This document shows positions 44,202 to 60,079 of a stretch of 64,000 bases of DNA, piece by piece. Below the pieces are notes generated by a model that was not told the origin of the DNA, ran no database searches, and saw only the letters and a list, made by a program, of their open reading frames with translations. The position numbers and the translations under genes were made by a program. The DNA is taken from NCBI RefSeq assembly GCF_010729895.1, contig NZ_AP022612.1:310001-374000 (forward strand). The letters are read 5' to 3'. The stretch comes from Mycolicibacterium confluentis (GTDB lineage Bacteria > Actinomycetota > Actinomycetes > Mycobacteriales > Mycobacteriaceae). Every line of letters begins with the position of its first letter. The stretch's first letter is position 1.

Positions 44202-44239
44202 TTGTACCTCCGGGACTGCGCGAGTACGGTCGGCCGTAC
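44202..44239 (+). promoter_or_regulatory. Sigma-A-type promoter overlapping a palindrome
   Basis: TTGTAC (44202-44207) and TACGGT (44225-44230) are 17 bases apart, a standard -35/-10 arrangement. The palindrome GTACGG-TCGG-CCGTAC (44224-44239) covers the -10 box and the expected start site near 44237, as an operator would. It sits 15 bases after the pabC-like gene and points away from it. Confidence 0.55.
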
Positions 44240-44408
44240 ACAGGGAAGGAGGTGGTCCGACAAATTGAGTGACGTATGGACATGTGAGGTGGCTGCCCGC
44301 TAGCAGCACCAGGCGAGGAAATTCACCTGCGCGCGCTGGCGAATTCCAAGCAGCCACCCGGCCCCCGAGCCCTCGGTCTGTCCAAACCGGAACACGGCTC
44401 GGGGGCCG
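44237..44408 (+). ncRNA. Candidate structured small transcript with 12-codon ORF
   Basis: From the predicted start near 44237 the transcript has AAGGAGGTG (44246-44254), close to full anti-Shine-Dalgarno complementarity. TTG 44265 opens a 12-codon ORF (MSDVWTCEVAAR, stop at 44301-44303). A stem GGTGGCTGC (44288-44296) pairs with 44350-44358 and encloses GC-rich inner sequence. A 13-bp terminator hairpin follows. The ORF end lies inside the long stem, as in attenuators, but no downstream gene on this strand is available. I cannot match it to a known RNA family. Confidence 0.5.
44359..44408. terminator. 13-bp perfect terminator hairpin
   Basis: Arms 44359-44371 (CGGCCCCCGAGCC) and 44396-44408 pair perfectly around a 24-base loop. 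It closes the transcript that begins near 44237 and may also stop minus-strand transcription coming from the nitrobindin/lipoprotein operon. The stretch 44409-44572 beyond it holds nothing I can support. Confidence 0.75.
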
Positions 44409-44572
44409 CTCCATGTCTGGGCTCAGTCTCACGACGGGGGTGGGCGCCAGAGACCGGCGGAGTGCCCCCTTGTCCGCGCTCCTATGCGCGAGATCTGCGT
44501 CGTGGTCGTGGAAGCCGCCGATTCCGGGGCTCAGGCAGCCATCACGTCGATCTCGCCGATGGCGCCCGGAAT

Positions 44573-51998: not shown

Positions 51999-53066
51999 AT
52001 GACCAGATCTACTAGTGACAGGATCGGCGATGGTGTTGCTGTGACGACTCCTAATCCGGCCGATGCAGGCTCCGGAGAGGTCATCGCTTCACCGTTCCCC
52101 GAGCCCGAGCCGATCTCGACCGACCCCGGCCGTGGTGCCAGGGTTCGCCTGGGTGACCGAGTCTTCCGCTGGCTGGCGGAGGGCTCGGGCATCCTCATCA
52201 TCGCGCTGATCGCCGCCATCGGCCTGTTCCTGTTGTGGCGGGCCATCCCGGCGTTGTCCCGCAACGAGGCCAACTTCTTCCTGTACGGCGGAAACTGGGT
52301 CACCACCGACACGTCGGCGATGAAATTCGGCATCCTGGATCTGCTTCAGGTGACGGTGTTCGTGTCGGTGTTCGCGTTGATCCTGGCCATGCCGGTGGCG
52401 CTGGGAATCGCGGTCTTCCTGACGCAGTACGCACCGCGACGCGTCGCCGGTCCGCTGGCCTATCTCGTGGACCTGCTGGCTGCTGTGCCGTCGATCATCT
52501 ACGGCGTGTGGGGTCTGTACGTGCTGGCCCCGGTGCTGCAGCCCTTTGCGCTGTGGCTCAACGAATACCTGGGCTGGCTGTTCCTGTTCGCCACGGGCAA
52601 CGCCTCGGTGGCCGGCGGTGGAACCATCTTCACGGCGGGCATCGTGCTCGCGGTGATGATCCTGCCGATCATCACGGCCGTCACCCGTGAGGTGTTCGTG
52701 CAGACTCCGCGTGGGCAGATCGAGGCCGCGCTCGCGCTCGGCGCCACCCGGTGGGAGGTGGTCCGGACGACGGTGCTGCCGTTCGGCATGTCCGGGTACA
52801 TCAGCGGGGCGATGCTGGGGCTGGGCCGAGCGCTCGGCGAGACCATCGCGCTGCTGATCATCCTGCGCGGCACCCAGAAGGCGTTCGGGTGGTCGCTGTT
52901 CGACGCCGGCTACACGTTCGCGAGCAAGATCGCCGCGGCCGCTTCGGAATTCAACGACCAGTACAAGGCAGGCGCTTACATCGCGGCAGGTCTGGTGCTG
53001 TTCATCCTGACATTTGTGGTGAACTCACTGGCCCGCGCGGCGGTCGCTGGGAAGGGCAAGTCATGA
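51999..53066 (+). CDS. pstC: Phosphate ABC transporter permease PstC
   Basis: A 355-residue permease with a long hydrophilic N-terminus and six membrane helices, starting ILIIALIAAIGLFLLWRAIPAL. YLVDLLAAVPSIIYGVWGLYVL and the cytoplasmic loop QIEAALALGATRWEVVRTTVLPFG are PstC hallmarks. GTG 52041 is a possible shorter start. The stop overlaps pstA (ATGA). It forms the channel with PstA. Confidence 0.95.
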   Translation: MTRSTSDRIGDGVAVTTPNPADAGSGEVIASPFPEPEPISTDPGRGARVRLGDRVFRWLAEGSGILIIALIAAIGLFLLWRAIPALSRNEANFFLYGGNWVTTDTSAMKFGILDLLQVTVFVSVFALILAMPVALGIAVFLTQYAPRRVAGPLAYLVDLLAAVPSIIYGVWGLYVLAPVLQPFALWLNEYLGWLFLFATGNASVAGGGTIFTAGIVLAVMILPIITAVTREVFVQTPRGQIEAALALGATRWEVVRTTVLPFGMSGYISGAMLGLGRALGETIALLIILRGTQKAFGWSLFDAGYTFASKIAAAASEFNDQYKAGAYIAAGLVLFILTFVVNSLARAAVAGKGKS

Positions 53067-54826: not shown

Positions 54827-55498
54827 TCAGTGCGCCTTGTACAGGTCGTGCTCCAAGGTGGGATAGCTGCCGGTGACCTGGAAGATGACCCGCCGGGCCA
54901 CCTCGACGGCATGGTCGGCGAAGCGTTCGTAGAACCGGCCGAGCAGCGTCACGTCGACGGCCGCGGCCACGCCGTGCTTCCACTCCCGGTCCATCAGCAC
55001 CGAGAAGAGGTGACGGTGCAGATCGTCCATCGCATCGTCCTCTTCGCGGATGCTGGCGGCCTTCTGCGGGTCTCGCGACAGGACCACCTCCTGGGCGCTG
55101 TTGCCCAGTTCGACCGCCAACCGGCCCATCTCGGCGAAGTAGCCGTTGACCTCTTCGGGAAGGGCGTGCAGCGGATGACGCCGACGGGCGATCTTGGCCA
55201 CGTGCAGCGCGAGCGCGCCCATGCGGTCGATGTCGGCGACCATCTGGATCGAGCTGACGATCGCGCGCAGGTCGCCTGCCACGGGGGCCTGCAGCGCCAG
55301 CAGCACGAACGCGCTCTCCTCGGCGGTCTCGCTCATCGCCGTGATCTGGTCGTGGTCGGTGATCACCTGCTCCGCGAGAACCAGGTCAGCTTGCAGCAGC
55401 GCCTGAGTGGCGCGCTCCATGGCACGTCCGGAGAGTCCGCACATCTCTCCAAGTTGGGCCGTCAGGGCTTCAAGCTGCTCGTGGTAAGCGGTCCGCAT
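54827..55498 (-). CDS. phoY2: Phosphate signalling protein PhoU (PhoY2)
   Basis: The ATG at 55498 gives 223 residues of two three-helix bundles. Metal-binding motifs appear as [24 protein letters not shown] and [23 protein letters not shown] (E/DxxxD). PhoU proteins restrain SenX3-RegX3 when Pst imports phosphate; mycobacterial PhoY2 also affects drug tolerance. TAGGCT (55506-55511 on this strand) is seven bases before the ATG, so the mRNA may be leaderless. A RegX3-like box lies at 55545-55562. Confidence 0.94.
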
Positions 55499-55544
55499 GG
55501 CTTCCAGCCTACGGTGCGGCCACGGCATTAGACACGATGTGCAG

Positions 55545-59075: not shown

Positions 59076-60079
59076 GAGGCCGCTGATGATGTCGACACCA
59101 ACAGGTTCTTCATGGCCTTCTTCTCGGCCACCTTGCGCTCACGCTCGAGGCGACGCTGCTTGGCGACCTCGAACTTCACGCAGGTGTCCTCGAGCTCCTT
59201 GATCAGCTCGCCGAGTTCGTCGCGCAGTCGCGCGCCCTCACCGGAGAAGTCCTCGCGCTCGAAGATGCGCCACTTCTTCAGCACCGGCATCACGACATCG
59301 TCGAGGTGGATGCGCGGGTCGTAGACACCGCCGACGGCGATGATGACGGCCTTGCGGCGGAAGTCCGGCACGGTGTACCCGGGCATCTTGAAGTTGGTCA
59401 GCACGCGGTGCAGTGAGGTCATCGCCTGGTTGGGGGCGATGTCCAGACCCGCGGCGCTGACGTCGCGGTAGAAGATCATGTGCAGGTTCTCGTCGGCCGA
59501 CACGCGCTGCAGCAGCTGGTCGGCGACGGGGTCCTTGCAGGCCTTACCGGTGTTGCGGTGCGACACACGGGTGGCCAGCTCCTGGAACGACACGTACATC
59601 ACCGAGTCGAACAGGCTCTCGGCGAACAGGTCGCCCTGCTGGTTCTGGCCCGGCGAGAAGCCGCGGGTCACCTGCTCCATGCGGGTGATCTCAAGCTCGA
59701 CCGGGTCGACCGCGCGGGTGGCCAGCAGGTAGTCGCGCAGGGCGATGCCGTGCCGGTTCTCCTCAGCCGTCCAGCGGTTGACCCAGAAGCCCCACGGTCC
59801 GTCCATCGAGAAGTTCATCGCGATCTCGCGGTGATACGACGGCAGGTTGTCCTCGGTCAACAGGTTCTGCACCATTGCGGTGCGGGCCACCTCGTCGAGC
59901 TTGGACTCGTCGGGGTCCCAGTCCTGGCCGCCGAGGGCGTAGAAGTTCTTGCCGTCCGACCAGGGGATGTAGTCGTGCGGGTTCCAGTCCTTCGTCATCT
60001 TCATATGACGGTTGATCTGCTGCTCGACGACAGGCTCGAGCTCGTGAAGAAGTTGCAGGTCGGTCAGGTCTTGCGACAC
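59072..60079 (-). CDS. desA1: Acyl-ACP desaturase DesA1
   Basis: A 335-residue ferritin-fold di-iron enzyme that desaturates acyl-ACP during mycolic-acid synthesis. Ligand motifs TAEENRHGIALRDY and SADENLHMIFYRD (ExxH) are both present. GTG 60079, with GGAGG five bases upstream, matches the M. tuberculosis N-terminus (SxxLTDLQLLHELEPVVE); ATG 60091 would add four residues. The upstream region has two TGTGTACCG repeats. DesA1 is essential in mycobacteria and repressed by the TetR-type MadR elsewhere in the genome. Confidence 0.95.
   Translation of the reverse strand: MSQDLTDLQLLHELEPVVEQQINRHMKMTKDWNPHDYIPWSDGKNFYALGGQDWDPDESKLDEVARTAMVQNLLTEDNLPSYHREIAMNFSMDGPWGFWVNRWTAEENRHGIALRDYLLATRAVDPVELEITRMEQVTRGFSPGQNQQGDLFAESLFDSVMYVSFQELATRVSHRNTGKACKDPVADQLLQRVSADENLHMIFYRDVSAAGLDIAPNQAMTSLHRVLTNFKMPGYTVPDFRRKAVIIAVGGVYDPRIHLDDVVMPVLKKWRIFEREDFSGEGARLRDELGELIKELEDTCVKFEVAKQRRLERERKVAEKKAMKNLLVSTSSAAS

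Follow-up and report, generated by a model that had tools for sequence, protein, structure and literature searches.

What does an RNA do that is tightly folded, ends in its own terminator and carries a reading frame of only 12 codons? The question is raised by positions 44202–44408 (plus strand) of a 64,000-nucleotide stretch of DNA from Mycolicibacterium confluentis (contig NZ_AP022612.1, positions 310,001 to 374,000), the whole of which is called the window here. The original prediction, made from the letters alone, had listed a promoter, a palindrome over the start site, AAGGAGGTG, a TTG-initiated ORF at 44265–44303, a 9-bp stem (44288–44296 with 44350–44358) and a 13-bp terminator, all of which were found where it had placed them. 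Its observation is confirmed, and its interpretation, which ranged from a small regulatory or peptide-encoding dual-function RNA to a leader that had lost its gene, is partly supported.

A known family of Actinomycetota RNAs

The unit had been thought to belong to no known family, which proved to be wrong. With cmscan it matched Rfam family RF02471 (Ms_IGR-5, "Actinobacteria sRNA") with 178 bits (E 1.2e-41), exceeding the curated cut-off of 45 bits, and the match was complete (model 1–184 of 184, window 44238–44414). Elsewhere in the window, at 59694–59761 on the plus strand, there is a match to Rfam family RF01781 (ASdes) with 87.7 bits. The name Ms_IGR-5 presumably originates from Li et al., whose Hfq-based screen is described in a review (available part of PMC4109619). 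In M. smegmatis the transcript ncMSMEG15794c was placed on IGR-5 (PMC10454040), in S. lividans Ms_IGR-5 was listed with RNA-seq support (PMC8079986) and in S. avermitilis it was one of two Rfam-matched sRNA units (PMC8780764), each as given in the available part of the source. The family is therefore already known; the design deduced below, an ORF together with a box complementary to 16S rRNA, was not found described in the literature searched, which left most subscription papers outside and yielded no ORF, function, target, partner or phenotype for Ms_IGR-5.

Matches to RF02471 were found in 54 of the 61 genomes of a search among relatives (M. confluentis included), in 181 of 198 genomes of the genus, in 192 of 296 genomes of the class and in 56 of 296 genomes drawn from the phylum, 32 of these 56 lying above the cut-off. 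Conservation outside the species, which had been named beforehand as a check, thus extends over genus, class and phylum. In 52 of the 54 genomes of the relatives search the match was the only one, and in the other two the second match was the terminator part on the opposite strand. Judged from these genomes, Ms_IGR-5 is most likely a stand-alone structured sRNA of Actinomycetota, present in many genomes across the phylum.

Seventeen of the 198 genus members gave no match, and several copies are damaged. An insertion-sequence end used to pick out M. tuberculosis among the 198 occurred in 8 genomes and was thus unspecific. In one genome (G691; L305, L316) a transposase-like ORF of 353 codons splits the RNA gene into halves at the CTAG of which the stop codon is part; in another (G617; L308) the 5′ part is gone and the terminator part alone remains, directly behind the promoter region; and two 3.3-Mb genomes (G641 and G672; L306, L307) harbor decayed copies in which the 16S box is ruined and much of the terminator lost. 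In the decayed copy L306 the short frame is, by eye, still open. Because of the genomes without a match and the interrupted, truncated and decayed copies, Ms_IGR-5 is to be regarded, on comparative grounds, as useful and not indispensable, being dispensable in places. A carried mobile element was considered and rejected, since the exact pattern had no match in IMG/VR and none in phage records; among 72,556 plasmid records one matched, a 2.66-Mb record of Nocardia farcinica.

For the counts that follow, homologues were matches to the RF02471 covariance model, which favors the conserved box and biases the sample in this respect. All 54 matches of the relatives search were taken, together with those from 88 of the 192 class-search genomes (7 of these shared with the relatives search) and all 31 matches from the phylum search that lie outside the class. 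The main count is 166 distinct sequences (135 of the class and 31 of other classes); a first ORF tally held 128 class sequences, 7 being added later, one tally held 165 owing to a length limit, and the 62 sequences left after thinning formed the alignment for the structure counts. Matches of the genus search were only counted, the sequences read being those that also occurred in the relatives or class searches plus five copies. The decayed, split and truncated copies (L305–L308, L316) are in no sequence count, their four genomes being among the 181 genus matches.

Promoter, helices and 16S-tail box

The promoter consists of TTGTAC (44202–44207), a spacer of 17 bases and TACGGT (44225–44230), and the −10 spacing predicts A44238, or a base close to it, as the first of the RNA (44238–44414, plus strand). 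In 147 of the 166 homologues, which is beyond chance, a −10 hexamer TANNNT has its first base 12 or 13 bases ahead of model position 1, and in 113 of them the first T of a TTG falls at −37 to −35; as far as the alignments tell, the promoter is fixed in place relative to the RNA. The palindrome GTACGG-TCGG-CCGTAC over the start site is present at 44224–44239 and in this genome was correctly noticed; it is not a general feature, however, being broken in several relatives (L002, L005, L008) in which the −10 box is kept. The description as a self-contained structured transcription unit was right. The predicted folding energy of 44237–44410 is −81.7 kcal/mol versus −65.5 kcal/mol (sd 4.5) for 200 shuffles, only one of them as low (z −3.58).

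The fold comprises five helices, P1 to P5, with 37 pairs that were named by hand and partly read off the same sequences on which they were scored. Across the 62 sequences 89.1% of the cells were paired, compared with 78.7% in shuffles and 35.7–40.8% in slid versions, and 217 cells showed double changes versus 60.2 in shuffles, so that covariation, the other check named beforehand, was also found. RNAalifold on the same wide alignment predicted only 3 pairs and did not recover the named structure; single-sequence folds of the 5′ domain contained all four P2 pairs in 75 of the 166 sequences and a P1-like pair in 102.

P1 joins CACA at 44239–44242 to UGUG at 44283–44286 (codons 6–7). In the 62 sequences 96.3% of its cells were paired and three of the four pairs changed on both sides; at the 5′ end ACAC, ACGC, ACCA and ACCG occur, each with matching partners at codons 6–7. 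The Rfam structure line lacks P1, P2 and P3, and since it leaves both sides of P1 unpaired, the search did not impose this helix, which by its covariation is a new outer helix. P2 (GUCC, 44255–44258, with GGAC, 44278–44281) holds the start codon in its loop; 94.0% of its cells were paired, and it is nearly invariant with hardly any covariation, which is in keeping with the position of its 5′ strand inside the 16S box described below. Where this strand reads AUCC (8 of 166 sequences), a G-U pair with 16S rRNA becomes A-U, and in 7 of the 8 P2 acquires a mismatch.

P3 pairs 44288–44296 (codons 8–11) with 44350–44358 (GCAGCCACC; CAGYCACC), a strand that would be freed if a ribosome covered the end of the ORF; this is the 9-bp stem of the original prediction, and 5 of its 9 counted pairs showed changes on both sides. 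P4 pairs 44298–44304 (codon 12 and the stop) with 44335–44341; three of the four pairs counted had both-side changes, and the three further pairs that L009 forms are not shared generally. A conserved segment resembling GGCGAAUUCC occupies 44338–44347, between P4 and the 3′ strand of P3. P5 is the 13-bp terminator hairpin (stem 44359–44371 with 44396–44408), in which 11 of 12 counted outer pairs changed on both sides and whose inner loop GUCC (44380–44383) is near-invariant (G 55, U 57, C 57 and C 55 of 62). This loop is complementary to the GGAC of P2. A pseudoknot between the two is not claimed, because its 3 double-change cells (93.2% of cells paired) are equaled or exceeded by slides of −1 and −2 (3 and 5, respectively); single suggestive cases are L217 and L297 (GGAU/AUCC) and L260 (CGAC/GUCG). 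Rejected, too, was the 5′ helix of the Rfam line (model 14–19 with 55–60), which would sequester the Shine-Dalgarno sequence: none of its six pairs changed on both sides and 89.8% of its cells were paired, the same as in shuffles, a result that concerns the Rfam structure line, not membership in RF02471 by score.

Directly behind the 5′ strand of P1 lies a 16-nt box, GGGAAGGAGGTGGTCC (44243–44258), an extended Shine-Dalgarno sequence that is complementary, with three G-U pairs, to the whole 3′ tail of 16S rRNA, GGATCACCTCCTTTCT, with which both 16S rRNA genes examined in M. confluentis end. Fifteen positions pair in all 166 sequences and the outermost, sixteenth, in 160, so that each homologue has 15 or 16 contiguous pairs, well beyond the core; past the edge of the box pairing drops to 156 and then to 56 of the 166. 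Where a minority base occurs in the box, 16S pairing is kept in 199 cells and broken in 6. The predicted duplex with the 16S tail is on average much stronger than the 5′ domain's own fold (−29.5 versus −10.2 kcal/mol), and it is the stronger of the two in each of the 166 sequences.

Among 42,652 stretches of 22 bases (taken every three bases on both strands), the box is the strongest 16S-tail site of the window. The second-best complement, GGGAGGTGGTCC at 52744–52765, lies inside a 355-codon ORF (51999–53066) that by eye reads like a phosphate-transport permease. The sequence AGGAGGTGRTCC occurs five times in the M. confluentis genome: in Ms_IGR-5, twice antisense to 16S gene ends and twice inside ORFs, one of 233 codons (window 54827–55528, minus strand) and one helicase-like of 653 codons. 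In 21 genomes the 16-base pattern RGRRRGGRGGTGRTYY occurred at 47 sites versus 3 for the reversed pattern; sorted by hand, 22 were the exact 16S complement, 18 were RF02471 matches and 7 were others. The one of these in M. confluentis lies opposite to where a PheT-like ORF ends and is followed by no fitting start.

These findings raise the question whether the RNA could simply be a trap for the 30S subunit. Leaderless mRNAs are common in mycobacteria; they would be spared, while the 16-nt duplex would cover the anti-Shine-Dalgarno tail and lower initiation on SD-led mRNAs, the ORF serving to let the caught ribosome leave. Such a role would account for a complementarity that spans the whole free tail, more than a Shine-Dalgarno sequence needs, for the minority bases that preserve it, and for the own-genome sites of AGGAGGTGRTCC, where the 16S antisense strands and two ORFs are the only company of Ms_IGR-5. 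A trap needs no 12-codon frame, however, and the frame, with its start and its stop, is conserved no less strictly than the box; in our opinion the trap is on the unlikely side.

The 12-codon frame

The ORF (MSDVWTCEVAAR; 44265–44303, plus strand) begins with TTG, ends with TAG and runs first through P2 and P1 on their 3′ sides and then through P3 and P4 on their 5′ sides. That it is real, as had been supposed, is borne out by its homologues. When the seven starts of translation table 11 were allowed, it was open, in frame and in the same place in all 135 class members (shuffle mean 34.0) and in 27 of the 31 sequences from other classes (shuffle mean 5.6); with ATG, GTG and TTG only, the numbers were 133, the other two having ATC and ATT (shuffle mean 14.9), and 16 (shuffle mean 2.5). 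The maxima in 300 loop shuffles were 26 of 135 for three starts and 48 for seven. By the same rule frames 1 and 2 gave 2 and 0 class members with three starts and 4 and 0 with seven; in the other classes, where CTG, ATT and ATC are among the starts, they gave 3 and 1, and 5 and 2. Under a looser rule that made no demand on the stop position, frame 1, too, offered an upstream start (121 of 128 class sequences), the length not being constant. Four of the 31 distant sequences fail: in L273 the anchor is misplaced and an ATG ORF lies in its other frame, in L280 and L287 ORFs are open in another frame relative to GAGG, and L262 has none.

In the first tally ATG, GTG or TTG stood at the shared start position in 126 of the 128 class sequences, the ORF being 12 codons long in 120 and 13 in 6 and ending with TAG (122), TAA (3) or TGA (1); the remaining two have ATC and ATT there (by eye). 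Within the genus the start is TTG in 44 of 46, GTG in one, ATT in one and never ATG, and in the other 89 class members it is TTG in 38, ATG in 36, GTG in 14 and ATC in one. In the 135 class members the spacing from the Shine-Dalgarno sequence to the start varies from 9 to 13, and the distance from the start to codon 8 is 21 bases (130) or 24 (5) and nothing else; therefore single-base insertions and deletions are tolerated before the start and only those of three bases after it. Judged by these homologues the ORF is conserved to phylum depth.

Could the frame be a by-product of constraints on the RNA and not be translated at all? Codons 5–12 lie mostly in helices, and UUGA at the start is a conserved part of the Rfam consensus. 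Such constraints do not explain, however, why the start is TTG, ATG or GTG and in some cases ATC, ATT or CTG, why all three stops occur and why only three-base changes in length are found behind the start, so that we consider an untranslated frame scarcely credible.

A dual-function RNA, in which the 12-residue peptide itself acts, calls for a conserved coding frame, and such a frame is what the sequences of the phylum contain. Moreover, at codons 6, 8 and 9 T, E and V are found in 96, 99 and 99 of 99 distinct ORFs, respectively. The constant residues, however, are encoded within P1, P2 and P3, whereas the amino acids of codons 2–4 range widely (at codon 2 S, I, N, Y, H, C, K and others). In these three codons the first two positions vary about as much as the third, and pairs of ORFs one base apart differ there by 8 non-synonymous and 2 synonymous changes; codons 5–12 follow the helices. 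No sign of amino-acid selection on the peptide was seen in codons 2–4, and in codons 5–12 any such sign is confounded by the helices. Because the peptide is free to vary outside the helices, it seems from the alignments that translation, not the peptide, is what selection keeps, and an active peptide appears distinctly improbable to us.

That ribosomes read the frame has strong comparative evidence in its favor, and ribosome reads on Ms_IGR-5 homologues were reported for M. abscessus and M. smegmatis (available part of PMC4974804). They are not proof of translation because many classical ncRNAs also give such reads, of which the authors warn (PMC4974804).

Neighbors, proposed mechanism and known systems

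In the window a gene for a folate-binding GCV_T protein precedes that of a class-IV aminotransferase upstream of the RNA, and genes for a THAP4-like heme-binding protein and a rhodanese lie downstream on the other strand; no gene follows on the strand of the RNA, as had been said. As to the hint that a place beside folate and Fe-S genes may be a clue, the neighbors are shared beyond mycobacteria (e.g. a folate-binding ORF in Blastococcus and Geodermatophilus). Folate-binding, PabC-like and THAP4-like genes are found near the RNA in several orders. The association is not general: a GC-by-position rule, used to select ORFs in the flanks, which were limited in length, placed folate-binding (41), THAP4-like (35) and PabC-like (31) ORFs near the RNA, at least one of them in 58 of 180 loci, of which 120 had been chosen by an exact sequence pattern, among the matches listed, and 60 came from the class search (15 of these 60). 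In the remaining loci the RNA, by the same rule, stands without shared neighbors, as far as the flanks reach. The set may be an old shared neighborhood; a role of the RNA in cis for these neighbors was rejected because they are shared in 58 of the 180 loci only.

An ORF, helices and a terminator are the usual parts of an attenuator read by ribosomes, and by a simple ORF rule 96 of 167 loci have their nearest downstream ORF on the strand of the RNA. In the other 71, however, this ORF is on the opposite strand, the downstream families differ by lineage, and the commonest of them, THAP4-like, has the opposite orientation in all 35 of its loci, as it has in the window. A conserved same-strand gene behind the terminator was not found in the 167 loci. 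Nothing suggests a leader whose gene was lost. That the RNA attenuates a gene downstream, or is what remains of such an attenuator, is in our view very improbable.

By comparison of its homologues, then, Ms_IGR-5 has a promoter at fixed distance, the fold P1–P5, a 12-codon ORF and a 16-nt box for the full 16S tail. The explanation that we consider best, and of which we are about half persuaded, is a stand-alone structured sRNA worked by ribosomes, in which the act of translation, not the peptide, would switch the form of the RNA. A 30S subunit would be caught by its whole 16S tail, and the duplex, by taking the 5′ strand of P2, would set free the start codon that the P2 loop holds. Initiation would occur at an often weak codon, and reading of the 12 codons would unzip P1, P2, P3 and finally, at the stop, P4. 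By the time it halts within P4, the ribosome would have cleared four strands, the 3′ ones of P1 and P2 and the 5′ ones of P3 and P4, and the closed form would have become an open one in which the 3′ strand of P3 (CAGYCACC) is free for another partner or for turnover. The output would be this freed strand or the occupied ribosome itself, the latter being the trap considered above. Going further, one may envisage a phylum-wide regulator of the ribosome that grips the initiating 30S subunit with its complement of the 16S tail, gauges free 30S by the reading of its 12 codons and, in covering the anti-Shine-Dalgarno sequence, shifts the balance of SD-led versus leaderless translation, a proposal that is, on sequence evidence, rather unlikely.

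Ms_IGR-5, listed as an ordinary sRNA, contains a 12-codon ORF conserved to phylum depth and a selected complement of the whole 16S tail. If translation does switch it, actinobacteria, antibiotic producers and mycobacteria among them, have an RNA that is operated by ribosomes at initiation. A structure different from the one in use is suggested for RF02471. The positions of start, stop and 16S box offer direct and cheap mutants with which the design is directly testable.

Translated regulatory RNAs, as proposed here for Ms_IGR-5, are represented by RNAIII of S. aureus and by dual-function RNAs like it; the peptides of these are longer and have a function, whereas that of Ms_IGR-5 varies. In rnTrpL of Sinorhizobium the trp operon follows, whereas no constant gene lies downstream of Ms_IGR-5. 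Like Ms_IGR-5, rnTrpL/peTrpL, a leader-peptide attenuator that also acts in trans, has a short ORF and a terminator that gives rise to a small RNA (PMC7298713, available part). The regulatory starts of infC, cvfC1 and ccpN in S. aureus resemble that of Ms_IGR-5 in combining a very strong, extended Shine-Dalgarno sequence with weak or non-canonical start codons; according to the available part of the source (PMC13009471) they begin normal genes, whereas in Ms_IGR-5 a 12-codon ORF lies in a folded sRNA behind a complete 16-nt complement of the 16S tail.
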